The notes beneath the pieces are model-generated. The model saw only the letters and a list, made by a program, of their open reading frames with translations. It did not search any database and was not told the DNA's origin. A stretch of DNA of 44,364 bases. Source: an uncultured Bacteroidota bacterium. Its GTDB lineage: Bacteria; Bacteroidota; Bacteroidia; Bacteroidales; P3. The DNA lies in NCBI GenBank assembly GCA_902790215.1, contig CADAQX010000027.1:74376-118739 (forward strand), read 5' to 3'. Position 1 is the stretch's first letter; every line of letters begins with the position of its first letter. Positions 1-12,507 of this stretch are shown in pieces. The translations under genes were made by a program, and so were the position numbers.

Positions 1-244
1 CTGTCGGCTGATGAGCTGCGGTGACGGTTCCCGCCTATGGGCATACGTTGCCCACCTGTGGGGCTATCTGCTGCGGTTCTGATGATGCACCCACCACGGA
101 CAACAGACACCACCAGCGGGCAGGTTCTGACCTCCACAATGGGCTACAGATTGCCGGGCTGGTACTGACTGAGAGCTGACCGCAACGGCACACCTCCAGC
201 GGTCGGGGTTCTGTTCTCCCTCGGTACTGGGTATGTGTCCTTGC
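1..244. other. GC-rich left edge of the mobile element, nothing recognised
   Basis: No convincing gene is visible. On the minus strand a GTG codon at 248 overlaps the stop of the ADP-ribosyltransferase-like gene and opens a 34-codon frame ending at 144. Another minus frame stays open through most of the stretch without a clear start. The segment is richer in GC than the rest of the element and rich in Pro, Gly, Trp and Cys codons. It may belong to a gene whose remainder lies outside the window. Confidence 0.3.
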
Positions 245-595
245 TCACCATATCATTACAGGCTTCTTGGTTTTATATTTTCCCACATACTCTATATACT
301 CTGGGGCTATCCTGTCCTGCTCCACATACCATTGCCACTGGCTGCATATCTCTGCCACATCGTCTAGTATCAGTGGCTTCTCTATTCCATCCATACTTAC
401 TTTAAACATAGCAAACTCTTTAAGAAATACTTGGTTTAGTGCTATATGGTCTGCTACACAATAAGGTTCCCTATACCACACTGGCTTAATTGAGATATCC
501 TCAAATAAGAATATCTTGCCAGCGTGGGCTTTTAATCCCTCTCGCTGTATTGCTTCAACGTTTCTTGGGTCTGTTATGTGGTATAACTCTTCCAT
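245..595 (-). CDS. Small ADP-ribosyltransferase-like protein (DarT/KptA-like fold)
   Basis: 116 residues. The N-terminus has the LYHIT...NVEAIQREGLK pattern (residues 4-22) seen at the start of ART-fold enzymes such as DarT and KptA: Tyr-His followed by an Ile-x-x-x-Gly-Leu helix. A short FLFED strand follows, and a C-terminal RIAPEYIEYV segment resembles the closing strand of these proteins. ART-fold enzymes transfer ADP-ribose from NAD to protein, DNA or RNA, and in mobile elements they often act as toxins or host modifiers. The protein is short for a full ART, and I cannot identify a complete H-Y-E or R-S-E triad, so activity is uncertain. It lies at the distal end of the visible element. 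Two tandem ATTGTAAAC-type words just upstream (596-615) could be an operator. Confidence 0.45.
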   Translation of the reverse strand: MEELYHITDPRNVEAIQREGLKAHAGKIFLFEDISIKPVWYREPYCVADHIALNQVFLKEFAMFKVSMDGIEKPLILDDVAEICSQWQWYVEQDRIAPEYIEYVGKYKTKKPVMIW

Positions 596-626
596 CGTTT
601 ACAATGTTTACAATCGTTAATACATA

Positions 627-720
627 GAACACTCCAACCAGCAAATAACCAGCACAATTGCCTGTAATTGTGTCTTATACCAAGCAAATATTGAACACTC
701 CAACCAGCAAATAACCAGCA
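627..720. repeat. Two 28-bp direct repeats with a 7-bp hairpin between them
   Basis: The same 28-bp sequence occurs at 627-654 and 693-720, a period of 66 bp. On the minus strand each copy contains the word TTATTTGCTGG, and an extra overlapping copy of that word extends the second repeat. Between them a perfect hairpin CACAATT-GCCTGT-AATTGTG spans 653-672. The block lies between the unknown 108-residue gene and the ART-like gene, so it may be an operator, iteron cluster or secondary origin. Confidence 0.7.
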
Positions 721-807
721 AATAACCACCTTAATACCGATGGGAATTAACGTGTTCATACGACACGGTATTTTTCTTATGATATGTGCCGGGAAAAGAG
801 TTTCTTA

Positions 808-1134
808 TTATTCGAGCGGGTCTATATCGCCACGGTGTTCTAATCCCATGGCCGCCTCCAGTGTCTCAATACGCTGCTTCAAATAATCATCCCTATATTT
901 GCCGATATCCTCCAAAACGTCAAACATAGTGCTAATTGAAAACTGAACACTGTCACCCCACATTGTACCCTCCGTGATTTGTTCAGAAACAAAATGTTGC
1001 AAAAGTAACGCAACCCCTTTTTGAAAGGCCGCAACTTCGCTAAAATCTTTTAGCCCGCAATAATTGACTGGTTCGGCAATCAACATTTTCTTACCGTCTG
1101 CGGTGGCGGTTGTTTTTAATTCTTGCTTATCCAT
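808..1134 (-). CDS. Hypothetical element protein, 108 aa
   Basis: Soluble, mixed-charge protein of 108 residues with no signal peptide or membrane segment. I do not recognise the family. The second half (about residues 68-100) is predicted to be helical and charged (DVLEDIGKYRDDYLKQRIET), suggesting a short coiled coil. A Bacteroidota -7 box, TATCTTTG, lies on the minus strand at 1151-1158, only about 17 bases before the ATG. The gene therefore has its own promoter and a very short leader. It sits between the replication region and the ART-like gene of the integrated element. Confidence 0.55.
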   Translation of the reverse strand: MDKQELKTTATADGKKMLIAEPVNYCGLKDFSEVAAFQKGVALLLQHFVSEQITEGTMWGDSVQFSISTMFDVLEDIGKYRDDYLKQRIETLEAAMGLEHRGDIDPLE

Positions 1135-1138
1135 TGTT

Positions 1139-1369
1139 CTACGATTTTTGCAAAGATACCACTTTTTTTTGATATAGAAAACTATTTTTCAGTGGTCTAT
1201 ATTTCTTTTCGTGGCCGTAGAACACTAATTGATGAAAACATAAAGGGGACAGTTTCCCGTCCCCTCCGTCGGCACCCCAGGCTCCCTTTCGGGTACACCC
1301 AAGGATTTTGTTGGGCTTCGGACTAAAACCGCTATTCCGCCCGGTGGATTTTCGAATGGAATAAGCCAT
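1139..1369 (-). CDS. Possible small basic protein, 76 aa
   Basis: The case for a real gene is its start. A consensus promoter (TTG-N19-TATTTTTG, -7 at 1391-1398 on the minus strand) and a strong AAGGAG Shine-Dalgarno (1376-1381) precede ATG 1369 with a six-base spacing. The product begins MAYSIRKSTGRNSGFSPKPN and is basic and Gly/Lys rich, with no recognised domain. Against it, a hairpin followed by a T-rich stretch (1245-1264) resembling a terminator lies inside the frame, and the last codons cover the next gene's promoter. The functional product could be shorter, or the unit could be a leader peptide with an attenuator. Confidence 0.4.
   Translation of the reverse strand: MAYSIRKSTGRNSGFSPKPNKILGCTRKGAWGADGGDGKLSPLCFHQLVFYGHEKKYRPLKNSFLYQKKVVSLQKS
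1151..1158 (-). promoter_or_regulatory. Bacteroidota -7 promoter box for the 108-aa gene
   Basis: TATCTTTG followed by C matches the TAnnTTTG consensus exactly. The -33 region, about 19 bases upstream, is only a T-run, so this half is weak. It lies within the distal end of the upstream small ORF. Confidence 0.6.
1245..1264 (-). terminator. Terminator-like hairpin within the small ORF
   Basis: On the minus strand GGGGAC-GGGAAACT-GTCCCC forms a six-bp GC stem followed by TTTATGTTTT. It lies downstream of a strong promoter and Shine-Dalgarno site, so it may be an attenuator or an early transcript end. Confidence 0.4.
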
Positions 1370-1521
1370 TCTTTTCTCCTTTTTCGTTTGCAAAAATACA
1401 AAGAAAAATCAAAATAACAACAAAAAAAAGAATGCTATTGTTGCACATTATATGTGTATAAAATCAACAATCTACTGATTATCAATCTGTATTAAGAAAT
1501 CGACTGTTTGTTATAGAGTGC

Positions 1522-1635
1522 AAAATAAAAAGGAGGACTTTGCCCTCCATAACTCCGGTCACCGTGGTGCCTAAGTTTCACGAACTTAATCGGTGCTGCT
1601 CAATGGTATCTGGATTGCTCCAACGTGCCCAAAGA
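1522..1635 (-). ncRNA. Probable small noncoding RNA of the mobile element
   Basis: A complete transcription unit without an ORF. The promoter on the minus strand is TTTG-N19-TAATTTTG (-7 at 1642-1649). About 110 bases later there is a seven-bp terminator hairpin (GGAGGGC-AAA-GTCCTCC by wobble pairing, 1532-1548) followed by TTTTTATTTT. Inside, nested stems can be drawn: CACCG...CGGTG enclosing TAAGTT-CGTGA-AACTTA. It lies just 3' of the replication initiator gene on the same strand. By analogy with plasmid and phage control RNAs it could regulate replication, but no target is proven. I cannot assign a known family. Confidence 0.55.
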
Positions 1636-1641
1636 ACGTTG

Positions 1642-1672
1642 CAAAATTACAACTATTTTTTCACTCACCAAA
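1642..1672 (-). promoter_or_regulatory. Promoter of the small RNA
   Basis: Reading leftwards, a TTTG -33 element, a 19-base spacer and TAATTTTG at 1642-1649. This is one of the closest matches in the window to the Bacteroidota housekeeping promoter consensus. No start codon with an ORF of useful length follows before the terminator. Confidence 0.6.
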
Positions 1673-1757
1673 ATTTATTTTCAGTATATTCATTATCCGA
1701 TATTTATATGCAGCATTTAAGCCTCGCATACTTCACAAATCTTTGTTAGTTCAACAA

Positions 1758-2729
1758 TTATATGGCTTCGTATCTCGCACGTTCAACCGCAACATCTAAT
1801 TGATTGATTAATGAATATCTGCACCCGTTTAACGCTTCCCCTATCATCTTTTTAAGGTCTGCCCGCCTTTGCTTAATCATAACCCCACGTTTGCACAGCA
1901 TTTTTAACGTGTTCTGTAAATAGTCGGCTGGCGCATATTGTAGCAAGTCGGCAAAGATAGCGTTAAACGCTTCTTTCGGGGTAGTGCTGGCGGCTATCCT
2001 GTCGGTGCTGGTTCTGCCAATGCTGCGGTATTCACCAGCCCACAAATTAACCAACTGCGCCCACTGCTGGGGCTTGGTTATGTCCTGTGCCGTCAGCTTC
2101 CGCGCCCCTATCTGCTGGGCAACACTGCCCGATAGTCGCAACTCATACCGCAACAGGTTTTGACAACCTGCCCACGCTGGGGGCATTTCCTGCCCCCTGT
2201 GGTGCATTTCTGCCCGTTTGTCGTAGAGACATAGCGCACGGCCTTTTGAGACGAAATAAAGGGTGTTTTCTCCAATGCTGACACGTTCCATTTCGGCACG
2301 GTTTGACAACTCGCCAATGTAGGCTGCAGGGGCTGCTGGTATGTCGAAAGTGTGTGCGATATCCAATCTCACAACTTCGGCACGTCCAATATTGAGGTGT
2401 ATAGCATCGGACAGACACCCCACACCCTCGGACACCTGCCTACGGGTGGGGGTGCTAACGTTCTCGCCTTGTACAAACTTCGCAATACTGCCCGACAATC
2501 TCACCTGTTCACTATCTGCATACACCCTATATCCTGCAACGTGACCCACAATGTACGGCACACCAGTGCTTACATAAACGCCCGATTTCTCCACGTCGAT
2601 ATAACGTTCTACAGACAGCGGGGAAACGCCCCCGGCATCCTTTGCCGTCATCCTCATATTTAACGTGTCAATCATAGTGTTTATTATAACCCTCTTATTA
2701 TTGGCTGCGCCCGTGGCGCACGTGTTCAT
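1758..2729 (-). CDS. Replication initiation protein, filamentous-phage gene II/X-like
   Basis: Up to 323 residues. The pattern is that of phage/plasmid replication proteins of the gene II/X group: MIDTLNMRM near the start, a LSGSIAKFVQGENV segment (compare G-N-P-A-K-F-L-Q-G in that family), RLDIAHTFDI, LYF...CLYDKRAE and NLLRYELRL. Such proteins nick the origin through an active tyrosine and start rolling-circle replication. I cannot assign the catalytic tyrosine with certainty; YDKRAEMHH and RYELRL hold candidates. The start may be ATG 2675, where the family-like MIDTL begins, rather than ATG 2729. Two inverted repeats lie 36-80 bases upstream of ATG 2729. In this context it would be the replicase of an integrated phage or rolling-circle element. 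Confidence 0.75.
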   Translation of the reverse strand: MNTCATGAANNKRVIINTMIDTLNMRMTAKDAGGVSPLSVERYIDVEKSGVYVSTGVPYIVGHVAGYRVYADSEQVRLSGSIAKFVQGENVSTPTRRQVSEGVGCLSDAIHLNIGRAEVVRLDIAHTFDIPAAPAAYIGELSNRAEMERVSIGENTLYFVSKGRALCLYDKRAEMHHRGQEMPPAWAGCQNLLRYELRLSGSVAQQIGARKLTAQDITKPQQWAQLVNLWAGEYRSIGRTSTDRIAASTTPKEAFNAIFADLLQYAPADYLQNTLKMLCKRGVMIKQRRADLKKMIGEALNGCRYSLINQLDVAVERARYEAI

Positions 2730-2764
2730 TATATATGCTGATATGTTCAGTTACGATTGAGAAA

Positions 2765-2809
2765 GTAACGCTTTTTGCGTTACCTTTTGGTAACGTGTTT
2801 TGCGTTACC
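2765..2809. repeat. Paired inverted repeats upstream of rep (candidate origin or operator)
   Basis: Two adjacent palindromes built from the same word: GTAACGC-TTTTT-GCGTTAC at 2765-2783 and GGTAACG-TGTTTTG-CGTTACC at 2789-2809. The core GTAACG thus appears four times in alternating orientation within 45 bp, directly upstream of the replication initiator. This is the expected place for a nick site/origin or an autoregulatory operator. Confidence 0.7.
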
Positions 2810-2847
2810 TTTTCGGTTGGCTGGTTGCCTGGTATCTCCATTTTTGA

Positions 2848-3030
2848 TTATCGTATTGCCAAAACTTCTTCAACAATACACACCGTGCCTTTGGTCTTAC
2901 ACTTGGTTTGCTGACACTTTGCAAACCGCTGTATGCTTACAACCCTATTATGACGGCAATTTGCACACTTCACAGATTGCTTTTCATAGCCCGTAACGGG
3001 GCATATCCCAGTATCAATTTTTGTGTTCAT
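2848..3030 (-). CDS. Small cysteine-rich protein, possible zinc ribbon
   Basis: 60 residues with seven features of a metal-binding mini-protein: CPVTGYEKQ, then CANC (a C-x2-C pair at about 22-25), and CQQTKC near residues 39-44. Paired cysteines at this spacing usually bind zinc. Its ATG overlaps the stop of the upstream winged-helix gene (ATGA), so it is translationally coupled in an operon of DNA-binding proteins that leads into the replication initiator. Function unknown; a role as replication or transcription accessory factor is inference. Confidence 0.5.
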   Translation of the reverse strand: MNTKIDTGICPVTGYEKQSVKCANCRHNRVVSIQRFAKCQQTKCKTKGTVCIVEEVLAIR

Positions 3031-3314
3031 TGTTCAACCTCCGTTGGCTGGGTAATTAGTCGATAATACTTGTATCTGACCCCGTGGCTGTTCTTTTCCC
3101 ACCTCGTTTCAAATACATAGCCATTGTTTTTCATTGTGCGTATATTAGCCCGTGGGTCTGATACCTTGCACAAGTCCATTAACTGCCGTGTGGTGTACCA
3201 GGCACCGTTACACATTACCCCGTAGATTGCCTTTTGTGCGTAAGCTGCCGGGTCTGTGGGTGCGCTTGCTGGGCTGTTTATTGCATCAAATATTGTGACT
3301 TGCTGATTACTCAT
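3027..3314 (-). CDS. Winged-helix-like small protein, 95 aa
   Basis: The start is set by a strong GAAAGGAGG Shine-Dalgarno and by ATG 3314 overlapping the TGA of the upstream HTH gene. An upstream extension of the frame is not used. Residues about 30-85 (AIYGVMCNGAWYTTRQLMDL...DPRANIRTMKNNGY...YKYYRL) read as a winged helix-turn-helix: helix, recognition helix, then a beta wing. This fits a small DNA-binding regulator. It is the middle gene of a coupled operon (HTH 3616-3311, this gene, cysteine-rich 3030-2848). The exact family is unknown. Confidence 0.6.
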   Translation of the reverse strand: MSNQQVTIFDAINSPASAPTDPAAYAQKAIYGVMCNGAWYTTRQLMDLCKVSDPRANIRTMKNNGYVFETRWEKNSHGVRYKYYRLITQPTEVEQ

Positions 3315-3616
3315 TTTGCGCCTCCTTTCTTGCCGTTCCGTGGTTTGCTGACACAATAGGCTGCTGCGCTTTCCTGCGCTTCCTCCGTGGTCGAAACTCG
3401 GTGCTTTAGTAACCAGTCGCACAGCTCCGACTTCTTGAAATAGGTTTGCTTGCCCCCTGCGCTTTTGTAGTAGGGAATTTTCTTTTCACAAACCAGCCTG
3501 TAAAGGTATGATTTTGATAAACCCGTGTAGGCTGCTGCATCGTCCATTGTTAGGGCATCTTTTGCAGCCAACAGGGTTAATTGTTCAATACGTTCTAATC
3601 TCTGTTCGATAGACAT
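3311..3616 (-). CDS. Excisionase-type helix-turn-helix protein
   Basis: 101 residues. Residues about 20-70 (ALTMDDAAAYTGLSKSYLYRLVCEKKIPYYKSAGGKQTYFKKSEL) are a textbook HTH_17/MerR-like excisionase domain: 'tmdeaAaytGlsksyLyrlv...ipyyk..g.k.yf.k.eL'. These proteins bend or bind DNA and, next to an integrase, usually serve as recombination directionality factor or regulator. It is first in an operon whose promoter (TACTTTTG, 3734-3741, minus) lies after the terminator of the integrase transcript, with a 115-base structured leader. The C-terminal tail is lysine rich. Confidence 0.75.
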   Translation of the reverse strand: MSIEQRLERIEQLTLLAAKDALTMDDAAAYTGLSKSYLYRLVCEKKIPYYKSAGGKQTYFKKSELCDWLLKHRVSTTEEAQESAAAYCVSKPRNGKKGGAK

Positions 3617-3640
3617 TGTTTTTCGTTATTACTCATTGCT

Positions 3641-3676
3641 GGGGACAGTCTGAGGTGCCAGGCTCACCGCGTCCCC
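3641..3676 (-). promoter_or_regulatory. Structured leader hairpin of the HTH operon
   Basis: GGGGAC (3641-3646) pairs with GTCCCC (3671-3676), and GGTG/CACC pairs inside. It lies in the 5' leader between the promoter (-7 box at 3734-3741) and the HTH start codon at 3616. The nine-base word GGGGACAGT is shared with the hairpin at 1245. Confidence 0.4.
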
Positions 3677-3733
3677 GTCCGTGTCATCCTCTCCAATGTG
3701 CTGACAACTCACATTTTCGATTGAATGACGGTG

Positions 3734-3741
3734 CAAAAGTA
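3734..3741 (-). promoter_or_regulatory. -7 promoter box of the HTH/rep operon
   Basis: TACTTTTG followed by C on the minus strand, preceded by a T-rich -33 region. It sits directly after the terminator of the integrase transcript, which separates an integration unit from a regulation/replication unit. Confidence 0.6.
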
Positions 3742-3746
3742 TAAAG

Positions 3747-3804
3747 AAAAACAAACAAAATCCCCGACAATACGGGGGTAATGTCGGGGGTATATACGGG
3801 GGTA
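3747..3804 (-). terminator. Terminator after the integrase transcript, with an 11-bp direct repeat
   Basis: On the minus strand CCCCGACA (3782-3789) pairs with TGTCGGGG (3762-3769), followed by ATTTTGTTTGTTTTT. The loop and the flank carry the 11-bp word ATACGGGGGTA twice (3770-3780 and 3794-3804). Confidence 0.7.
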
Positions 3805-3812
3805 TTATTACT

Positions 3813-4463
3813 CTATTTTAATTTGTTAAGCACTTCAAATATTCTTGTTTGGCTATCTGTTCCACGGCTTTTATAATATGCTTTTTGTAGTGCCTTGCCT
3901 GTCTTTCCTATCAACTTGCCCCAATCGTCCCAATACATTTCCACAGATAGTTTTTCCTGCATTATCTGCGCCACTTTCCCCCAATCTGGCATTGATGAAA
4001 CAGCCCACGGGGTTTGGGTTCTGTCTAACACTTTTCGGTTTCTATAGCCCAGTGTTCCCTCTAATGCAAGTAACATTTTTTCGGCTTTCGTCTCGGTTAA
4101 ATATTCGGGGACTTCAAACGCCTGTTGTTGGTCGGTGTCCGTTCCTGTGGTCGGTTCTGCCGGGGGCTGGTCGGTTCTGCCGGCCATGGCCGTGCTTTGT
4201 TTCATTACAGCAATATGAAAATTACATCTTGAGACAAACTCGTTCACAAAAACTTCTGACGGTTTTATTTGACTCTTTCTCACTAACGACAATATGCAAT
4301 CTCTTACTCTTTCAACATCCTCAACTTTGTTGAGTTCGTATATAATATCAACCAAAGTTCCACACCGCCAATTGTCGGTTATTACTTGCCAGTCTAATTG
4401 TTCAAGGTCTATCGCCTTGCCCTCATTTATTTGCCTCACCGTGAAAGCTGCTAATATGTTCAT
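3813..4463 (-). CDS. Integrase-associated hypothetical protein
   Basis: About 216 residues. ATG 4478 overlaps the integrase stop (TAATG), but ATG 4463 has a good GGAGG site 8 bases upstream, so the shorter start is preferred. The first 100 residues look helical. A Pro/Thr/Gln-rich linker (about 100-120 of the longer form) joins a second basic and aromatic domain with DWGKVAQIMQEKL and YWDDWGKLIGKTGKALQKAYY, which may bind DNA. I do not recognise the family. Translational coupling to the integrase suggests a role in integration or excision. It is followed by a strong terminator. Confidence 0.6.
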   Translation of the reverse strand: MNILAAFTVRQINEGKAIDLEQLDWQVITDNWRCGTLVDIIYELNKVEDVERVRDCILSLVRKSQIKPSEVFVNEFVSRCNFHIAVMKQSTAMAGRTDQPPAEPTTGTDTDQQQAFEVPEYLTETKAEKMLLALEGTLGYRNRKVLDRTQTPWAVSSMPDWGKVAQIMQEKLSVEMYWDDWGKLIGKTGKALQKAYYKSRGTDSQTRIFEVLNKLK

Positions 4464-4477
4464 TTTCTCGCCCTCCA

Positions 4478-5650
4478 TTATAGATTGTTCAACAGGTTCA
4501 CCGCATCCACTTTCTTTTTATCCACTATCTTTGCATAAATCTGTGTGGTGGCAACCTCGGAATGTCCCAACAGCTTACTAACGGTGTAGAGGTCTGCCCC
4601 CTTTGTCAGTAGGGTTGTGGCGTATGTGTGGCGTGCTGTGTGTAGTGTCAAATTCTTGCTTATTCCTGCCCGTTCTGCCCATGCTTTCAACGTGCGGTTC
4701 ATGGCTGGCTCTGTCGGTATGTCGGCAAATACAAGCCCGCTGACGGGCTTTTCTCCCTGCTGCGGTAGAAACTCCCGTGCCTTGCTCGATAGGGGCAAAT
4801 AAAGGGGTGTTTGCGTTTTCTGCTGGCGTATGGTGATAGTCCATTGTTCGCCCTGCTGGTTTATGTCAGCCCACCGCAACGCCTTAACGTCCGATATACG
4901 CAAACCGCAATAACACATAAAGAGGTACGCCCGCCTTGTTTCCTCGCTGGCTGTCGGGGTGTTCTCTAACAACTTCAACTCATCAATGGTAAGATACGCC
5001 CGTGTGCTTTCGGGTACTTTGATTTTGTCCGCATCTGCCAACATATCACACGGGTTTTTGTTTATTACGCCCTCCCTCATTGCCTCGGACAATGCAAACC
5101 TCAAACATTGGTAACGCTTTTGTGCCGTGCTGGCTGCTAAATGCTGCCCTGTGTTCTGCACATTACGCCCGATAACATAACCCGTACGCAAATACTCTAT
5201 AAAGCCCTTGCAAAATTCGGTGTCCACGTCCGACACTCTCACACGCTCACCAGCGTATTGCCTCAACAGGTCGGCTGTGTTCTCTATCGTACGCCCCCAC
5301 GTGTGGCGGTTGGCTGCGGTGCTGGCTCTCTGCCCTGCCTGTTCTGCACAATGTATCATCCAATCCGACAACAGGATTTTCGACTGCCAAACACGCTTTA
5401 ATCCCGCCTCTTCGGCTATGATTGCCCGTGTACGCTCTGCCTTGATAGCGTTTGCAGCGTTCAACACCTCCAAGTTATGCAGCTTGTCAAAGGGTGTCTT
5501 TTCGGGTATTAGATAGAGTTTAAGAAATTCATACTCCCTTTGCCCGTCTTTGTAATAGTCCAGGTACAACGACACATTCCCGTTTGACAGTCTTTTTTCT
5601 CTCAAACGTACCGTTTCTTTCGCCTTGCTGGCAACTTTTTTTCTCGGCAT
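4478..5650 (-). CDS. int: Tyrosine recombinase / integrase
   Basis: 390 residues, the usual length for Bacteroidota phage or conjugative-element integrases. An N-terminal arm-binding region (1-60) and a SAM-like core-binding domain (about 90-195) precede the catalytic domain. Visible catalytic residues are R251 (CGLRISDVKALRW), K278, H337 and R340 (HTARHT), H363 (LLGHSEV) and the nucleophile Y372 (TQIYAKI), so the enzyme looks intact. The gene starts about 205 bases from the 3' end of tRNA-Val(CAC), the classic position for an integrase at its attachment site. Its promoter carries an 11-bp tandem repeat that could be arm-type or operator sites. Confidence 0.95.
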   Translation of the reverse strand: MPRKKVASKAKETVRLREKRLSNGNVSLYLDYYKDGQREYEFLKLYLIPEKTPFDKLHNLEVLNAANAIKAERTRAIIAEEAGLKRVWQSKILLSDWMIHCAEQAGQRASTAANRHTWGRTIENTADLLRQYAGERVRVSDVDTEFCKGFIEYLRTGYVIGRNVQNTGQHLAASTAQKRYQCLRFALSEAMREGVINKNPCDMLADADKIKVPESTRAYLTIDELKLLENTPTASEETRRAYLFMCYCGLRISDVKALRWADINQQGEQWTITIRQQKTQTPLYLPLSSKAREFLPQQGEKPVSGLVFADIPTEPAMNRTLKAWAERAGISKNLTLHTARHTYATTLLTKGADLYTVSKLLGHSEVATTQIYAKIVDKKKVDAVNLLNNL

Positions 5651-5681
5651 ACTCGATAAGATTTAATTTTGTTTCCGATTG

Positions 5682-5727
5682 CAAAGATACAAACTTTTTT
5701 TCATTCGAGTAACAAACGAGTAACAAA
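5682..5727 (-). promoter_or_regulatory. Integrase promoter with tandem 11-bp repeat
   Basis: The -7 box TATCTTTG is at 5682-5689 (minus). The 11-bp sequence CGAGTAACAAA is repeated head to tail at 5706-5716 and 5717-5727, around the -33 region. Such repeats near int usually bind the integrase arm domain, Xis or a repressor. Confidence 0.55.
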
Positions 5728-5826
5728 AATGTACCTTATAACATCAAAACAAGGTAAAACAACACCCAAAACCGCAACGGCTGTATTTCAGTATATTAGC
5801 AATGAAAATCAACACTTTAGGGCATT

Positions 5827-5851
5827 AAAAAAGCCCCTCAAAAAGGGGCTT
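5827..5851 (-). terminator. Terminator of the tRNA-Val transcript
   Basis: On the minus strand AAGCCCC-TTTTTGA-GGGGCTT (5831-5851) is followed by a T-run. It lies five bases past the tRNA-Val(CAC) 3' end and ends transcription before the integrated element. Confidence 0.8.
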
Positions 5852-5855
5852 TCTG

Positions 5856-5930
5856 TGGTCTGTGGCAGATTCGAACTGTCGACCTCTTCCGTGTGAAGGA
5901 AGCGCTCTGAACCAACTGAGCTAACAGACC
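5856..5930 (-). tRNA. tRNA-Val(CAC)
   Basis: Cloverleaf on the minus strand: acceptor GGTCTGT/ACAGACC, D stem GCTC/GAGC, anticodon stem CTTCC/GGAAG with loop TTCACAC (anticodon CAC), T loop TTCGAAT. No CCA is encoded. The T stem GACAG/CTGCC has one A-C mismatch (position 50:64), which is unusual and may mark the border between host sequence and a 3' end supplied by the integrated element. Probable attachment site for the integrase at 4478-5650. Confidence 0.93.
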
Positions 5931-5968: not shown

Positions 5969-6046
5969 TGGTGATCTGTACAAGATTTGAACTTGTGACC
6001 TCTTGCCTGTCAAGCAAGCGCTCTAAACCAACTGAGCTAACAGATC
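5969..6046 (-). tRNA. tRNA-Val(GAC)
   Basis: Cloverleaf on the minus strand: acceptor GATCTGT/ACAGATC, anticodon loop TTGACAG (anticodon GAC), T stem ACAAG/CTTGT fully paired, CCA encoded (5969-5971). It is cotranscribed with tRNA-Val(CAC) from a promoter with -7 box at 6081-6088. Confidence 0.95.
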
Positions 6047-6383: not shown

Positions 6384-6391
6384 TAATTTTG
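6384..6391 (+). promoter_or_regulatory. -7 promoter box ahead of the cobalamin riboswitch
   Basis: TAATTTTG followed by C, with a T-rich upstream region. Transcription would begin within about ten bases, just where the riboswitch sequence starts. Confidence 0.65.
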
Positions 6392-6393
6392 CA

Positions 6394-6592
6394 GCCGGTT
6401 TGGTCGCCATTATGGCGTGAAAAGGGAATGCCGTGAAAATCGGCAACAGTCCCGCTGCTGTAAGCCCTGTAGTGCAGAGACTGAGAATCAAGGCCACTGT
6501 CCGGCAACAAAGCCGTATGGGAAGGCTGAGTCTCCGCAAGGTAAGTCAGAAGACCTGCCAAACCGGCATGTAACCGGCCTCGAGGAAAGGAA
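6394..6592 (+). promoter_or_regulatory. Adenosylcobalamin riboswitch
   Basis: The conserved core of the AdoCbl riboswitch is visible in order: GGGAATGCCGTGAAAATC, GGCAACAGTCCCGCTGCTG, TAAGCCC, GCCACTG, GGGAAGG and the 3' block AGTCAGAAGACCTGCC. It sits between a Bacteroidota promoter and a TonB-dependent receptor, with the likely ribosome-binding region (GAGGAAAGGAACG) directly after it. Translation or transcription of the uptake genes would be repressed when cobalamin is plentiful. Confidence 0.95.
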
Positions 6593-6602
6593 CGTGAACA
6601 GA

Positions 6603-8639
6603 ATGAACATAAAACATATTATAGCCCTATCGGTCTTTACCTGTATGCTGTACACCATCGGTGCAGCACAGGACACGGTGCGCCGTGCTGTGACGCTCCC
6701 TGCCGTGAGCGTCATCCAGACCAATAGCCGTCCTGAGACCATTAAGGCACAAACTCCTACCCAGGTGGCCACATCCGAAAAGATAGAGCGCCTCGGCGAT
6801 GCCCAGCTGAGCGATGTCCTGCGCCGCATGGTGGGTGTGACGCTTAAGGATTATGGTGGGCTGGGTGGCATAAAGACGGTGTCGGCACGTGGGCTGGGCA
6901 GTCAGTTCAGCACCCTGACCATTGACGGAGTCGCTGTCACCGACTGCCAGAACGGACAGGTGGACCTAGGGCGCTACATGCTGGGCAACAGTAGCTATAT
7001 CTCCTTGTCCAATGGCCAAATGGATAATACCCTCAATGCGGCAAGGTCGTTCTCTTCCGGCAGCATTATTAATATGGAGACCCATGAACCGGAGTTCGGC
7101 ACCCGTCCGTTCAATCTCCGCGCCGGGATAGAAGGCGGCTCCTTCGGACTGCTCTCCCCGACACTCTCTTATGAGCAGCGACTTGGGCGAAAGATGTCCC
7201 TCTCGTTGTGGGGCAACTATTTGCGCTCCGAAGGCAACTACCCGTTCACACTTTACTACACTCCCGGGCGTACCGACAGCTGTTCCCGCGAGGTGCGACA
7301 GAACTCGCAGGTGCGGATGGGTACGGCCGACATGAACTTCTTCTACCGTGTCAACAGTAGTGACCGACTGCATGTCAAGGCGCACTATATGAAAGGCTAC
7401 CACGCCCTTCCCGGCCCTGTGATTTACTACACCGTAAAAGGGTCGGAACACAGTGAGGAACAACTCTTCTTCTCGCAGGCACGCTACCGCCATACAGGTG
7501 CTTGCTGGGACTGGCAGTTGCTGGCCAAATACCAGTCTACCGAAGATATCTACGAGGATACTGCGGTCCACAGTATCGGAGTGTTGCACAACGAGTACAA
7601 TCAGCAGGAAACTTATCTGTCGCAGACAGTGCGGTTCCACACTGGCGATGGCAATCAAGACCACTTCTCCCTCAGCTTTTCTGCGGACGAGGCTGTCAAT
7701 CATCTTGTCAGCAACCTGAACCAGCACAACCAGGTGCGGCGGCTGTCCGCTCTCGGAGTCTTGTCGGCAGAATATCTTTTCCACCAGCTTCCCGACTCCA
7801 TCCGTCCACGCATCAATGCCCACCTTCTTGGCACCTGGATTCGTGACAATGAACTGGCCACTGTCTCTGATCCCTATGTACGCCTGTCGCCTTATGTGGG
7901 AATCACTTGGCCAGTGTACCATTTCACTCTGCGTTACTTTTTTAAGGATAACTACCGCGTGCCCAATTTTAATGAGTTATACTACTATACAATCGGCCAC
8001 AATCTGCGCCCGGAGAAAGCCCGGCAGCACAATATCGGTGTCACCTATCATAGCGACCCCATCCGCATTGGCGAGGCCGTCGAAGCGCATACCGCCACAC
8101 TCGACATGTACTACAACCGTGTGAGTGATAAGATTATAGCCATACCTGTGCAGAACATGTTCCTGTGGTCCATGATTAACATGGGGGAGGTGGAGATTGC
8201 TGGCGTCGATGTAACAGCCAATGTGGCTGTCCGCACGATAGCACTCCCCTATAGCCGTATAGACATAAGCCTTGGCTACTCATACCAGTATGCGGTCGAC
8301 CGTACTGACCCCGATGGCAAGACCTATGGGCACCAAATCCCCTACACACCACGCCACAGCGGCAACGCCACTCTCACGGCCTCCACCCCATGGGGCGACA
8401 TAGGCCTGTCCCTCATGCTGGTGGGCGAGCGCTACGCCAAGCAGCAGAACACCCCGGCCTACCGTGTGCCCGGCTATGCCGACCAGGGCGTCACCCTCAG
8501 CCGCTCTTTCGACCTTGGCAAGTGCGAGCTGAGGGCAAAGATACAGGTGCTAAACATCTTCAATGCACAATACGAGGTCGTGAAAAACTACCCCATGATG
8601 GGGCGCAACTACCGCCTCGGCATCACCTTGACAATCTAA
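6603..8639 (+). CDS. btuB: TonB-dependent cobalamin receptor (BtuB-like)
   Basis: 678 residues from ATG 6603. An upstream in-frame extension is riboswitch RNA and is not coding. A signal peptide (MNIKHIIALSVFTCMLYTIG) is followed by a TonB-box/linker region, a plug domain (about residues 40-150: LSDVLRRMVGVTLKDYGG, VSARGLGSQFSTLTIDGV) and a long beta-barrel with alternating aromatic strands ending at TLTI. The position directly behind an AdoCbl riboswitch identifies vitamin B12 or a related corrinoid as the substrate. BtuB-type receptors take corrinoids across the outer membrane using TonB-ExbBD energy. The BtuG-like surface lipoprotein gene follows within 40 bases and is probably cotranscribed. 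Confidence 0.93.
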   Translation: MNIKHIIALSVFTCMLYTIGAAQDTVRRAVTLPAVSVIQTNSRPETIKAQTPTQVATSEKIERLGDAQLSDVLRRMVGVTLKDYGGLGGIKTVSARGLGSQFSTLTIDGVAVTDCQNGQVDLGRYMLGNSSYISLSNGQMDNTLNAARSFSSGSIINMETHEPEFGTRPFNLRAGIEGGSFGLLSPTLSYEQRLGRKMSLSLWGNYLRSEGNYPFTLYYTPGRTDSCSREVRQNSQVRMGTADMNFFYRVNSSDRLHVKAHYMKGYHALPGPVIYYTVKGSEHSEEQLFFSQARYRHTGACWDWQLLAKYQSTEDIYEDTAVHSIGVLHNEYNQQETYLSQTVRFHTGDGNQDHFSLSFSADEAVNHLVSNLNQHNQVRRLSALGVLSAEYLFHQLPDSIRPRINAHLLGTWIRDNELATVSDPYVRLSPYVGITWPVYHFTLRYFFKDNYRVPNFNELYYYTIGHNLRPEKARQHNIGVTYHSDPIRIGEAVEAHTATLDMYYNRVSDKIIAIPVQNMFLWSMINMGEVEIAGVDVTANVAVRTIALPYSRIDISLGYSYQYAVDRTDPDGKTYGHQIPYTPRHSGNATLTASTPWGDIGLSLMLVGERYAKQQNTPAYRVPGYADQGVTLSRSFDLGKCELRAKIQVLNIFNAQYEVVKNYPMMGRNYRLGITLTI

Positions 8640-8677: not shown

Positions 8678-9733
8678 ATGAACAAGCACTTTCTCACCGT
8701 CTCCCTGCTGGCTGTTATTCTGCTGGCCGGATGCAAAAAAGACCCTGTTCCCACGCCTGTGGATCCCACTCCTTCCACCGCTCCCATCTATCTGCTCAGC
8801 GAAGGCTCCTGGGGCGGAAACGATGCCGAGATAAGCCTCTTGGATAAAAATAGCGACACCGTTGTCCTCGACTGGTTCAGCCGCAATAATGGCCGTGGTC
8901 TCGGCGACCTTGCCCAGGACTTGGTCCACTATGGCAGCTACCTCTACACCGCCGTCTTCAATTCCAACACCATCGAGGTTATCAATCCGCTTACAGGAAA
9001 GAGCATCAAGCAAATCAACATGGGGCAACGCGGCCCCCGCTACATCGTCCCCCTCAATGGTAAGATTTATGTCACCTGCTACGACAAAACCGTCGTGCGT
9101 ATTGACACCGCAACCTTCGCCATCGAGGCCACCTGTCCGCTCAGCGGCATGCAGCCGGAACAGCTCTGTGTCATAGGCGACAACCTGTATGTGTGCAACT
9201 GCTGGCAGTACGATGCCAACGGCGAAGCCATCTATGACAGTACTGTGTCCATTGTCAATCTCGGCACTTTTACCGAGACGGGCAAAATCACCGTGGGGCA
9301 GAATCCGGGCAAAATCAAAGCCCTCGACTCCCACCGCTTCATCGTGGCATGCGCCGGCGACCACCACTCCCCGGTAACAGTCATCGTCGACATCCTCAGC
9401 CAGGAGAAAACACCCCTTTCTGTGTCTGCTACCAACTTCGACATATACAACAACACCATCTACCTCTACAACACCTCCTACGATGCCCAGTGGAACCCGA
9501 CAGCCTCTTTCTACCGTGTCGATGCCACCACCCTGCAGGTTACCCCCATGCTCGAAAGCTACAGCCGCAAACTCTCCTACGCCTATGGCATCAACGTCGA
9601 CCCCGCCACCGGCAACCTCTACATCTGCAACAGCCCCTACACTGCCAGTGCCGATGTCTATGCCTTCCGTCCCGACGGCACAGAAATCCGCCACGTCGAA
9701 GGATGTATCCTCTCGTCAAAAGTCGTCTTCTGA
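8678..9733 (+). CDS. btuG: Surface beta-propeller lipoprotein, BtuG-like
   Basis: 351 residues from ATG 8678, chosen because it gives a compact lipoprotein signal (MNKHFLTVSLLAVILLAGC, Cys 19). ATG 8657 is also possible. After a Pro/Thr linker come repeated beta-propeller blades of the YncE type, with recurring patterns such as YLYTAVFNSNTIEVINPLTG, KIYVTCYDKTVVRIDT, NLYVCNCW and NLYICNSPY. In Bacteroides, BtuG is a seven-bladed propeller that caps BtuB and binds cobalamin tightly. The adjacency to a riboswitch-controlled BtuB makes this the best assignment. The substrate is inferred from context and fold, not proven. Confidence 0.85.
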   Translation: MNKHFLTVSLLAVILLAGCKKDPVPTPVDPTPSTAPIYLLSEGSWGGNDAEISLLDKNSDTVVLDWFSRNNGRGLGDLAQDLVHYGSYLYTAVFNSNTIEVINPLTGKSIKQINMGQRGPRYIVPLNGKIYVTCYDKTVVRIDTATFAIEATCPLSGMQPEQLCVIGDNLYVCNCWQYDANGEAIYDSTVSIVNLGTFTETGKITVGQNPGKIKALDSHRFIVACAGDHHSPVTVIVDILSQEKTPLSVSATNFDIYNNTIYLYNTSYDAQWNPTASFYRVDATTLQVTPMLESYSRKLSYAYGINVDPATGNLYICNSPYTASADVYAFRPDGTEIRHVEGCILSSKVVF

Positions 9734-9742
9734 CAAACTTTT

Positions 9743-9772
9743 TTTGTAATTAAAAAAAAAGTTGTATCTTTG
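9743..9772 (+). promoter_or_regulatory. Promoter of the outer-membrane barrel pair
   Basis: TTTG at 9743-9746, an 18-base spacer, and TATCTTTG at 9765-9772. The barrel genes therefore have their own start of transcription in addition to any readthrough from the cobalamin operon. Confidence 0.65.
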
Positions 9773-9848
9773 CATGTTCAAAACTATGCCCAAAAGCATA
9801 GAAAGAACATGTAAAGAATATTTATTTAGAAATAACAACATATTATAA

Positions 9849-10709
9849 ATGAAAAGGATACTACTTACCTTAGCTTTGGCAGTCCTCACGCTTTCAGCCA
9901 ATGCACAATTCTTTATTAGCGCCAATGTCGGCGGCAATAAGTTCTCAGGCACCACGCATACGCACACACAAATTTCTGTTGTTGCCGACATCGAGTACGA
10001 CACTGTCAACTTCCTCGAGTCCACCACCTCTTTTACGGGTGGTCTGAAAGCTGGCTACAAATTCGGCAAAGCCCAAGTCGGTGTCGCCGGTAGCTATAGT
10101 ATGTACAACTCAATCCACCAACCGCTCGACCCCACACTGGTGCCTATCATTGGCAACATCATGCCCAACTGGGTCTCCTCGGGTGAGATGTCTTCCCATG
10201 GCTCGTCATTCACGGTGGCTCCCTACTTCCGTTACGATGTGCTCACGGCTGGCGATGTATCCCTTTTTATTGAACTCTCGCTTTTCTATACACAGATGCA
10301 GAACCCTACCATCGACACGGCCAAAGTTGACAACCACATGGAAGTAAACGGTGTCCCTGTCGTTACCTCATACTTCACCTGGGATACCGTCGGCGCTCTT
10401 GTTCCGCGCAACTCCACCACCTATGGTGCCCGTGTCACGCCCGGCCTCACCTGGCAGCTCAGCAAGCACTGTGGCATCGATCTCTATCTCGACTTCCTTT
10501 CCTTGGCCTACTCTCAGACCAAATCCATCGACACACGTCTCGACTATAGCTTTAAAGTCTCCGGCACAGGTACCGTTACCTACGACTATACCCTCACCAC
10601 GGTCAACACCTCGTCCACTGATTTCGGTGGTGCTCTCACAGGCACTCCGCTTCTTACCAAACAAGGAGTCAACAACTGGGTACGTGTAGGCTTCAACTTC
10701 ACTTTCTAA
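9849..10709 (+). CDS. Outer-membrane beta-barrel protein, paralogue 1
   Basis: 286 residues with a signal peptide (MKRILLTLALAVLTLSANAQ). The rest alternates beta strands and ends with WVRVGFNFTF, the typical terminal strand with a C-terminal Phe recognised by the BAM machinery. The next gene is a clear paralogue: the same NAQF.ISA..GG start, a shared GARVTPGLTWQLSKHCGIDLYLD segment and the same ending. Function unknown. Likely a small porin-like or OmpW/OmpX-like barrel. Location after the cobalamin genes is suggestive only, because a separate promoter precedes it. Confidence 0.75.
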   Translation: MKRILLTLALAVLTLSANAQFFISANVGGNKFSGTTHTHTQISVVADIEYDTVNFLESTTSFTGGLKAGYKFGKAQVGVAGSYSMYNSIHQPLDPTLVPIIGNIMPNWVSSGEMSSHGSSFTVAPYFRYDVLTAGDVSLFIELSLFYTQMQNPTIDTAKVDNHMEVNGVPVVTSYFTWDTVGALVPRNSTTYGARVTPGLTWQLSKHCGIDLYLDFLSLAYSQTKSIDTRLDYSFKVSGTGTVTYDYTLTTVNTSSTDFGGALTGTPLLTKQGVNNWVRVGFNFTF

Positions 10710-10721
10710 GTTCCCTAAGTC

Positions 10722-11594
10722 ATGAAAAAAGTATTATTCATCATCGCTTTTGTCTCAATAGCTGCATTGGGCAACGCTCAGTTTGTTATCAGTGCACAGC
10801 TTGGGGGAAGCTACTTTAACGGTTCTTCGTCTTCCGAGTTCATTCATCAAACAGTCAGTGCCGAAACGGGTCAAGACACGACTATTCAGGGATTCGGCGA
10901 CACAATCCATTTTGATAAACCGCTCGCTCTCTCCGGGGGAATAAAAATCGGTTATCAAACGCGCAAGATGCAGTTTGGCATTGCAGCCATCTTCTCTTTC
11001 AGCCATGTCTATGCCGAACAGTCCGCTCTCGAATACTACGCTGCCAACCCCAATACCGAAGTTGTCAAGCCTTCAATGGCTGTTAGATACAAGGACTATG
11101 TCGGTTGGTACAAACAATACCGCACCAGCTACAGCATTGCCCCCTATATCCGCTATGAGCTCATCCAGCTCGGTGACGTGACTTTCTTCGCCGAACTCAA
11201 TGGTTATTTCACCAAGGTGAACAACGCCAAGCATCACGACTTCCTCGACTGGTACTATCGCGAAATGCACAATACCATCGACACCTCTTTCGTCATTCCC
11301 GAATCCTCCACTTCCCTCGGTGCCAAAATCGTTCCAGGCCTCAACTGGCAGCTCTCCCCCCATTGCAGTGTCGACCTCTACTTTGACATCATGGCCTTCT
11401 CGTTCGATTACACTACGGTGTACAAACGCACTGTTATCGACGAGTATGACTACACTACACTGCCTCGCGTTCTGGCACGCCGCACCACCATCGATGCCAC
11501 CACCACCAGCACTGAGATGGGCTTCGCTGTCACCGGCTCCCCGCTTCTCTCCAACCGCAACTGGGTGCGCGTGGGATTCAACTACACGTTCTAA
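10722..11594 (+). CDS. Outer-membrane beta-barrel protein, paralogue 2
   Basis: 290 residues, with signal peptide MKKVLFIIAFVSIAALGNAQ and terminal strand WVRVGFNYTF. It begins 12 bases after paralogue 1 and is surely cotranscribed. It shares the central LGAKIVPGLNWQLSPHCSVDLYFDIMAF block and C-terminus with paralogue 1, but the loop regions (residues about 25-60 and 215-260) differ strongly. That is the pattern of a tandem duplication followed by divergence of surface loops. No substrate can be assigned. Confidence 0.75.
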   Translation: MKKVLFIIAFVSIAALGNAQFVISAQLGGSYFNGSSSSEFIHQTVSAETGQDTTIQGFGDTIHFDKPLALSGGIKIGYQTRKMQFGIAAIFSFSHVYAEQSALEYYAANPNTEVVKPSMAVRYKDYVGWYKQYRTSYSIAPYIRYELIQLGDVTFFAELNGYFTKVNNAKHHDFLDWYYREMHNTIDTSFVIPESSTSLGAKIVPGLNWQLSPHCSVDLYFDIMAFSFDYTTVYKRTVIDEYDYTTLPRVLARRTTIDATTTSTEMGFAVTGSPLLSNRNWVRVGFNYTF

Positions 11595-11630
11595 GGATTT
11601 CCCCGATTATTAATCAAATTTGTAATATGT

Positions 11631-11660
11631 GGGGTTGAAATGTTGTTGCGTTTCAACCCC
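11631..11660. terminator. Perfect 10-bp hairpin after the barrel genes
   Basis: GGGGTTGAAA (11631-11640) and TTTCAACCCC (11651-11660) pair perfectly around a ten-base loop. The following TCTCTGTTTC is only moderately T-rich, so it may be a weak terminator or an mRNA-stabilising hairpin between the barrel pair and the next gene. Confidence 0.5.
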
Positions 11661-11679
11661 TCTCTGTTTCCCGCCGACC

Positions 11680-12507
11680 ATGAAAACTGTCCACAACGCC
11701 ATTGCCTTGCTTCTGGCACTGATGCCTCTCATCGCCACGGCACAGCAGCCTGTCGTGCTCCGCTTGGGCGATTGGCTGCCCGACACCGTTGCACTCAGCG
11801 GCAGCGCCCAGGGCATGGCCATCCACAGCAACTGTGCCGTCATGCTACGCCACGGTGGGCAATGCCTTCTCCTCGACCTGAAGCAGCACAGTCTCATAGC
11901 CTCCTATATGCTCGACGGCAACACCACCCATTGCAACAATGCCTCCTTCTCATCCCTCCGCCCTTACGGCGACGACCTCCCTCTGCTGTACGTCTCTGGG
12001 TGCTATGGCGACAAGGCGTGCTACGTCACTCGTCTCACCCGTTCGGGTTCCTCCGTTGTGCAACGTATCTACTACGATAGCGACTGCTTCCCCGTGGCGC
12101 AGGACTGGTGTCTCGACGCCGACAGCAACCGGCTCTATGCCTATGGTGGGCGGAAAGGCGGTCCTATGTTTCTCAAGCAATTCCGTCTCCCGTCCCTGGC
12201 TGCACCCGAAGTGCATCTCTCCGACTCCGACGTGCTGCGCACCATCCCTGTCAACTGTGTCGCCGTGGCGCAGGGCAGCAAAATCAAGGGCGGCCATGCC
12301 TATCTGCCCGATGGTGACCGCCCCGGACACTTCTGGCTGCACATCATCAGCCTTGCCACTGGACAGGAGGTGCACACCATCGACCTCAACCCCATCGGGC
12401 TTGAGCCCGAAGGCATCGACATCCGGGATGGGTGGATTTACGTTAGTTTCCATACCCCCGATCCACGCGACAACCGAATCTATCGTTTCCCAGACCCCAT
12501 AAGATAA
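11680..12507 (+). CDS. Secreted propeller-like protein
   Basis: 275 residues from ATG 11680, which begins a clean signal peptide (MKTVHNAIALLLALMPLIATAQ). The longer upstream frame runs through a hairpin and is unlikely to be used. The mature part has repeated short beta blades: GMAIHSNCAVMLRHGGQCLLLDL, LPLLYVSGCYGDKACYVTRL, RLYAYGG, HFWLHIISLATGQEVHTIDL and WIYVSFHTP, consistent with a propeller or WD-like secreted protein. It carries no lipobox. It could be another ligand-binding accessory of the neighbouring uptake genes, but nothing in the sequence identifies a ligand. Confidence 0.65.
   Translation: MKTVHNAIALLLALMPLIATAQQPVVLRLGDWLPDTVALSGSAQGMAIHSNCAVMLRHGGQCLLLDLKQHSLIASYMLDGNTTHCNNASFSSLRPYGDDLPLLYVSGCYGDKACYVTRLTRSGSSVVQRIYYDSDCFPVAQDWCLDADSNRLYAYGGRKGGPMFLKQFRLPSLAAPEVHLSDSDVLRTIPVNCVAVAQGSKIKGGHAYLPDGDRPGHFWLHIISLATGQEVHTIDLNPIGLEPEGIDIRDGWIYVSFHTPDPRDNRIYRFPDPIR

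Follow-up and report, generated by a model that had tools for sequence, protein, structure and literature searches.

How does a DNA element of about 6 kb, built around an integrase and a filamentous-phage-type replication initiator, pass from one bacterial species to another? The question is raised by an element at the left end of a 44,364-nucleotide (nt) window, the whole stretch of DNA analysed here, which comprises bases 74376-118739 of contig CADAQX010000027.1 (C27) in the 3.0-Mb genome of an uncultured Bacteroidota bacterium of the order Bacteroidales (GCA_902790215.1); the left flank in the same contig was also read. With about even confidence, the element is taken to be a minimal helper-dependent integrative element that would replicate by the rolling-circle mode, most likely a satellite of tailed phages comparable to the phage-inducible chromosomal minimalist island (PICMI). 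Its lack of recognisable genes for a coat or for transfer makes hitching its most likely way to travel, perhaps in tailed-virus particles.

Borders and target site

The whole integrated unit measures 6152 bp (6.15 kb), the distance between two copies of a 19-nt attachment (att) core. Since the second core lies 6152 bp away from the right one, some 300 bp left of the window, the window shows about 95% of the complete element. The initial annotation had supposed that only half of the element was visible and that coat and Zot-like genes lay beyond the left edge. Neither supposition held: the left flank consists of about 300 bp of element and then chromosome, so the predicted genes are absent from it. 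The DNA left of attL is chromosomal, and its host genes align to L023, a relative from another species. The element is delimited by the following features, in window coordinates:

1..5869, no strand assigned: window part of the integrated element; the rest (about 300 bp, including attL) lies left of the window
5851..5869, minus strand: attR core, 19 nt, at the 3' end of tRNA-Val(CAC), with an exact copy about 301 bp left of the window
5855..5930, minus strand: tRNA-Val(CAC), the integration target, from a tRNA call
5705..5737, no strand assigned: 33-nt repeat, 91% identical to the attL-side copy, in direct orientation (the two copies are at 7081-7113 and 1152-1184 of L010)

The right end of the element falls at about 5869, within the tRNA gene, and a second tRNA-Val (5969-6046) stands outside it. 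A terminator-like hairpin accompanies both copies of the core, and the 33-nt repeat near each core is a candidate arm-type site of the integrase. An Rfam scan with E up to 5 gave three sub-threshold matches near the tRNA and none elsewhere. Immediately to the left of position 1, and still within the element, there is a run of 17 N; L023 has this region too, with its order unchanged. The run is flanked on both sides by one same short sequence and is therefore perhaps an unmerged assembly overlap, not missing sequence. Farther out, between attL and a conserved host gene, the stretch 13432-17191 of L009 contains an ATPase-like gene (by eye) and others that have little or no DNA match in several relatives, a part of it being present in L059 at 91.6% identity. 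It is possibly a second, older insertion.

Genes of the element

Reading inward from the tRNA, the gene order is integrase, ORF2, HTH_17 protein, winged helix-turn-helix (HTH) regulator, 60-aa protein, Phage_CRI initiator, 108-aa protein and 116-aa protein:

4478..5650, minus strand: tyrosine integrase (Arm-DNA-bind_5, Phage_int_SAM_5, Phage_integrase)
3813..4478, minus strand: ORF2 (P221), 221 aa, function unknown, variable among relatives
3311..3616, minus strand: excisionase/AlpA-like HTH_17 protein (HTH_17 1.4e-12; TIGR01764 1.1e-11)
3027..3314, minus strand: winged-HTH regulator (HTH_39 4.5e-6)
2848..3030, minus strand: 60-aa protein (P60) with six Cys
2765..2813, minus strand: two tandem dyads (GTAACGCAAAA..CGTTAC), fold z -5.6
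2676..2735, minus strand: conserved stretch preceding rep, fold z only -1.9
1758..2675, minus strand: Phage_CRI (gene II-like) rolling-circle initiator (Rep), 305 aa, from a profile match
808..1134, minus strand: 108-aa protein, function unknown
245..595, minus strand: 116-aa cargo protein (P116), function unknown, also in L023

Much of the initial annotation is borne out by this inventory. The tyrosine integrase at a tRNA-Val gene is confirmed by its domain matches and by the tRNA call, and the excisionase-like HTH protein by the two profiles listed. The serial ATGA coupling described for the operon is found between the excisionase and winged-HTH genes and between the latter and the P60 gene; the overlap of the integrase gene with ORF2 is TAATG. 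The absence of a relaxase also stood, no relaxase family having been found among the eight element proteins scanned. The same scan gave no pI/Zot-like morphogenesis ATPase and no coat family; two short hydrophobic open reading frames (ORFs) on the coding strand, 574-759 and 1332-1448, lay outside it. No packaging gene, which not every family of phage satellites has, was recognised in the window copy; such genes are present in relatives. The 108-aa protein occurs in four other genomes (119 genus genomes searched, own included), in three of them within elements with this integrase. A role of P116 as a nucleotide-transferase-like or defence protein was rejected, the matches being weak (DUF7002 0.027; NCBIfam RNA 2'-phosphotransferase 0.08); it had no PADLOC match, and its AlphaFold model was unusable, with a mean predicted local distance difference test score of 42.

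The ratio of non-synonymous to synonymous substitution rates (dN/dS) is 0.05-0.10 for the integrase gene in four pairs and 0.19-0.20 for rep in two divergent pairs. By these ratios the integrase, and rep in the two divergent pairs, are under purifying selection.

The initiator and its candidate origin

The initiator matches PF05144 (Phage_CRI) with an E value of 3.4e-17 and 63.4 bits against a cut-off of 21.7. Its matches to Rep_trans (E 0.003) and to TIGR01629 (19.7 bits, cut-off 29) are below the family cut-offs. The gene II/X-like nature first assigned to it is upheld. The profile search placed the protein in Phage_CRI and no relaxase family was recognised in the element, so that neither of the outcomes named in the initial annotation as refuting it was seen. 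Its length was first given as 323 residues. The start is probably the second ATG (window 2675, M19 of the longer version), giving 305 residues, because Rep begins there in several relatives (e.g., L021, L045, L046 and L057) and the stretch preceding this ATG differs by 1 nt in length in L057. Among the positions invariant in 17 Rep sequences are N90, Y169, K171 and E174 (longer numbering).

Upstream of rep, the segment 2760-2820 folds with a z of -5.6, none of 200 shuffles folding as well, and the tandem dyads within it are a candidate initiator binding site and origin, or an operator. The conserved stretch at 2676-2735 is probably non-coding and constitutes a candidate origin region. L019 has a Rep of 44% identity and, in the same place upstream of rep, dyads of different sequence, as would be expected if the site co-evolves with its protein. 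The non-coding segment 1145-1294 was considered as a single-strand origin and set aside (fold z -1.73, not convincing).

Some relatives have direct copies of a candidate origin on both sides of rep. In L051 (about 9250-10315) copies of the form CTATATAGTAAG.TGTATT..GTTACC..GGTAACC stand near the start and after the stop of the gene. Such copies are also seen in L022, L044 and L054, more loosely in L065, where the upstream copy is 204 nt from rep, and by eye in L020. Five of 24 loci clearly exceed 20 shuffles each, and L048 only just. With such copies, rep could be mobile as a single-strand cassette; alternatively, they could mark two origins.

Spread between species and occupancy of the tRNA-Val site

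Alignment of the element with L023 gives 98.1% identity across 4133 nt and 94.2% across 1829 nt, whereas the left host flank is 67-76% identical, which indicates recent horizontal transfer of the element between species. Against L056 the element is 97.4% identical over 4230 nt, 97.5% over 679 nt and 81% over 234 nt; host stretches common to both are 75-80% identical.

A host gene from the left side is present in 112 of 119 genus genomes. Thirteen of these neighbourhoods were fetched, and eight of the 13 contain the tRNA-Val pair; att limits were searched within the fetched stretches, and the relatives are mostly draft genomes. At four of the eight pairs (L130, L132, L133 and L142) there is a single att core and no match to proteins of the window element. 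These sites are free of this element yet not bare, with other genes beside the tRNA; in L142 the host gene is on the opposite side of the tRNAs, and the loop of the terminator that follows the tRNA in L130 and L133 is the one found outside attL in the window genome. The other four sites (L131 and L138-L140) hold an integrase of this type (86-98.7% identity). In L138-L140 a second copy of the core lies at a distance of 5.2-6.2 kb; in L131 the contig ends before that distance. Among the sites empty of the element, the genes 3' of tRNA-Val are restriction-modification-like in L130 and HipA-like in L132 (by eye), and because of these the tRNA-Val site may be a broader insertion hot spot.

A shared integration cassette with exchanged replication modules

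When the element is read as a circle, an attP-integrase cassette of about 1.56 kb can be delimited. Both of its sides are 94-97% identical in L019, L139 and L140; its integrase side is 96.5% identical in L131, the L138 cassette reaches 80-83%, and that of L057 reaches 94% and 89%, with further similarity. Outside the cassette, DNA similarity is absent or patchy in L019, L131 and L138-L140. Its borders are near the end of the integrase gene, within about 20 bp of the stop codon, and about 150-160 bp ahead of the left core.

The genes that follow the cassette differ. L131 encodes a phage O/DnaD-like initiator (phrog_428 9e-10, phrog_186 1e-8) together with an endonuclease of phage type (phrog_93 4e-10). 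The Rep profile matches nothing in L138-L140, where genes of no assigned identity fill the replication position; these three also have a DUF5681-like gene, and in L139 and L140 no other gene stands between it and the core. A common integrase cassette combined with exchanged replication modules clearly illustrates modular evolution at a single tRNA site. In L088, whose integrase is 67% identical, a DUF6291 protein at 11398-12078 (PF19808 3.3e-11, phrog_15768 3.5e-31) occupies the replication position, perhaps a further type of replication module, and a protein of the 108-aa type is encoded on the other strand.

Occurrence of the initiator family and packaging-type genes

With the own genome counted, Rep was found in 6 of 99 relatives and 13 of 393 genomes of the order, and PF05144 in 10 of 395 genomes of the phylum. 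An integrase match lies 5' of rep in 16 of 22 loci, the exceptions being L022, L044, L047, L048, L053 and L054. In the plasmid collection, the window Rep had no match and the L045 Rep had one (L069). Four IMG/VR contigs, plus L159, carry Rep relatives. Among 17 IMG/VR loci found by their integrase, one matched Rep (L159) and two had a DUF5681-like match (L149, L156). Viral-contig scans with the window Rep, A2, P116 and the L139 DUF protein gave no relative, and a scan with the L065 DUF protein returned only itself.

Packaging-type genes were counted over 31 Rep loci. This set leaves aside short loci and duplicates from the same places (L011-L018, L031-L043, L070-L079), the partial L068, the later-found L159 and, among the phylum hits, L093 (without a match to the Rep profile), L094 (split) and L095 (distant). 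Of the 31, 14 have a DUF5681-like gene downstream of rep: 11 were called by motif, L022 by a profile from 10 such proteins, L021 by Pfam, and L058 is near-identical to L021. In L021 and L058 the gene is about 1 kb downstream of rep. PF18932 is matched above its cut-off by four proteins (two of L046, L021 and L048) and below it by L019, L051, L057, L138 and L139; L050 and L065 have no match, and the calls for L045, L047, L053 and L054 rest on the motif alone.

Two further loci, L091 and L055, have a gene like that of the terminase small subunit (TerS). The match is strong in L091, a 4.4-kb element at a tRNA-Met gene with TerS downstream of rep (phrog_309 3.2e-13). This protein is 47% identical over 90 residues to a gene product of phage PJN03 whose gene overlaps the start of the terminase large subunit gene, and 37% identical to the annotated small subunit of Flavobacterium phage 1/32. 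The L055 match is weaker (6.5e-5) and 1.5 kb downstream of rep. The DUF5681-like profile also matches a gene in the myophage locus L064 (4e-12), which overlaps the terminase gene there, and one in Bacteroides phage BF1-TP2 (L063, 1.3e-22), though both loci had been fetched for such similarity. The presence of packaging-type genes beside differing replication genes favours tailed-phage particles as the vehicle.

A further conserved protein of about 190 aa (..YPTLLDEVK..) follows rep in L089 (7053-7646) and L090 (5772-6368), elements that adjoin an apparent mnmE (by eye), and a similar one is encoded 504 nt after rep in L022. The L089 copy had no family match.

How the element may travel

In the life cycle proposed, the excisionase and integrase would release the element as a circle, and the initiator would nick an origin just upstream of its own gene, so that rolling-circle replication would yield multimers. 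A helper tailed phage would package these multimers and deliver them to new cells, where the integrase would insert the element at tRNA-Val. In many relatives the DUF5681-like or TerS-like gene downstream of the replication gene may steer packaging; the window copy, which has no such gene, would depend on an unrecognised gene or on being packaged by chance. The anatomy supports excision and rolling-circle replication as probable abilities of the element, and packaging is inferred.

The nearest analogue is PICMI of the Vibrionaceae, a minimal element that, according to the available text of PMC10803314, is packaged as an eight-copy concatemer by a phage about eight times its size. That text supports several likenesses: very small size, an integrase with a coupled downstream gene, an AlpA/HTH_17-type regulator, an own replication protein and no capsid genes, with helper dependence shown for PICMI and inferred here. 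As described there, PICMI has a DUF3987/DUF5906 primase and a site next to fis, whereas the present element has a Phage_CRI initiator, inserts at tRNA-Val and belongs to Bacteroidota; of the set that defines PICMI (integrase, AlpA/HTH_17, this primase and the fis site), it has the integrase and HTH_17 only. Unlike PICMI, many of its relatives carry DUF5681/TerS-like genes. Phage-inducible chromosomal islands (PICI), such as the Staphylococcus aureus pathogenicity islands (SaPI), contain an integrase, an excisionase, a replication gene and a small terminase gene. The element shares the first three with them, and the last through its relatives, but is much smaller, uses a rolling-circle initiator, has no TerS in the window copy and no recognised capsid-size genes. 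Two other comparisons were dropped: Charybdis elements differ in gene content in the available text of PMC12324425, and pig-gut inoviruses have predicted Firmicute hosts and a pI gene in that of PMC9723715.

Several observations weigh against a tailed-phage satellite. All the evidence is sequence comparison, in which neither a helper or particle nor an excised circle or concatemer was seen. The own genome has no match to the PF03432 relaxase, the PF03237 terminase or Zot (other helper families were not searched), and therefore no resident helper of these kinds. Fifteen of the 31 Rep loci have neither a DUF5681-like nor a TerS gene (L066 ends 593 nt after rep), and the window copy and its two closest relatives are equally without one. 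That DUF5681 acts as TerS is not proven, because most matches are below the cut-off and L050 and L065 lack a Pfam match. No terminase is annotated beside the DUF5681-like gene of BF1-TP2, and a DUF5681 protein appears in the structural proteome of Salmonella phage STGO-35-1 in the available text of PMC8954984. Two Rep queries found no relative in 50,697 phage records, and the presence of Rep relatives on IMG/VR contigs cannot be taken as a sign of packaging, because L065 and L067 carry host-like genes (by eye). The two closest pairs, in which changes are few, give dN/dS values of 0.48-0.60 (rep) and 0.61-1.04 (ORF2).

The main rival is an integrative mobilisable element (IME) in which the Phage_CRI initiator doubles as a replicative relaxase, or an unrecognised origin of transfer is used, so that a resident integrative and conjugative element conjugates the circle. 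We regard this as unlikely, although the spread between species would suit it. Bacteroides NBU elements share with the present one both insertion at a tRNA and the gene order integrase, orf2, excisionase, regulator and replication gene; their tyrosine integrase is likewise of Bacteroidota, as in other Bacteroides IMEs, and the order counts for mobilisation. MOBT relaxases are related to Rep_trans. They offer an analogy for initiator-driven conjugative hitching in the available text of PMC11389934. However, no relaxase or coupling protein was recognised among the eight scanned proteins, PF03432 is absent from the own genome, and 30 scanned proteins of relatives gave no mobilisation family but did give DUF5681/TerS. 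In the available text of PMC5704250, Bacteroidetes IMEs with a named relaxase use MobP; the present element has no MobP relaxase and has a Phage_CRI initiator instead. A conjugative element was rejected, with no relaxase recognised in the element and no PF03432 in the genome. More doubtful is an integrating cryptic rolling-circle plasmid with no dedicated vehicle, moved by generalised transduction, transformation or chance co-transfer. It would explain why the window copy holds only integration, regulation, replication and unknown genes and no recognised packaging or transfer gene; yet packaging-type genes recur downstream of the replication gene in relatives, even in elements without Phage_CRI.

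The initial annotation had suggested a cryptic inovirus-like prophage or a rolling-circle satellite. The satellite fits; the inovirus was rejected by the complete borders and the absence of Zot/pI. The RS1 satellite of CTXphi, likewise integrated, has a gene II-like initiator but lacks coat genes, and an inovirus satellite or degenerate inovirus could be packaged by a helper filamentous phage in the same way. The element resembles RS1 in being integrated, with such an initiator and no recognised coat genes; helper-packaged single-stranded DNA needs no coat genes of its own, and the two hydrophobic ORFs would also fit. The Phage_CRI/gene II-type initiator and the size of about 6 kb recall inoviruses as presented in the available text of PMC6813254, where pI/Zot is the only good candidate for a universally conserved inovirus gene. 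With no Zot/pI, recognisable coat or relaxase gene, the element is therefore not an inovirus. Even a filamentous satellite is very improbable: Zot is missing from the own genome and no convincing one was found in the 119 genus genomes, where three had PF05707 matches (E 4e-4 to 7e-4, two of them slightly above the curated cut-off); these lie in frames of 704-984 residues, which were judged not to be Zot proteins. Unlike RS1, the element has its own tyrosine integrase and excisionase; one relative encodes TerS of tailed-phage type, and in a sibling the same integrase is combined with an O/DnaD-like initiator.

A wider proposal, held with somewhat less than even confidence, is that 4-7 kb satellites of tailed phages occur across Bacteroidota and combine a fixed attP-integrase cassette with an exchangeable replication-packaging module, in which Phage_CRI or O/DnaD-like initiators would make concatemers and DUF5681/TerS-like proteins would direct packaging by the helper. 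Among the matches listed in a search of open PMC papers, titles and abstract starts described no such elements in Bacteroidota. If these elements prove to be satellites, that would explain a class of mobile DNA that recurs and is easily overlooked. It would also show a gene II-type initiator feeding the packaging of tailed phages and give DUF5681 a testable function, that of a small terminase.

Outside the element, just past the tRNA pair, the window contains a cobalamin riboswitch (RF00174, 105.8 bits) at 6384-6576, followed by a 740-codon frame that resembles a TonB-dependent receptor (by eye).

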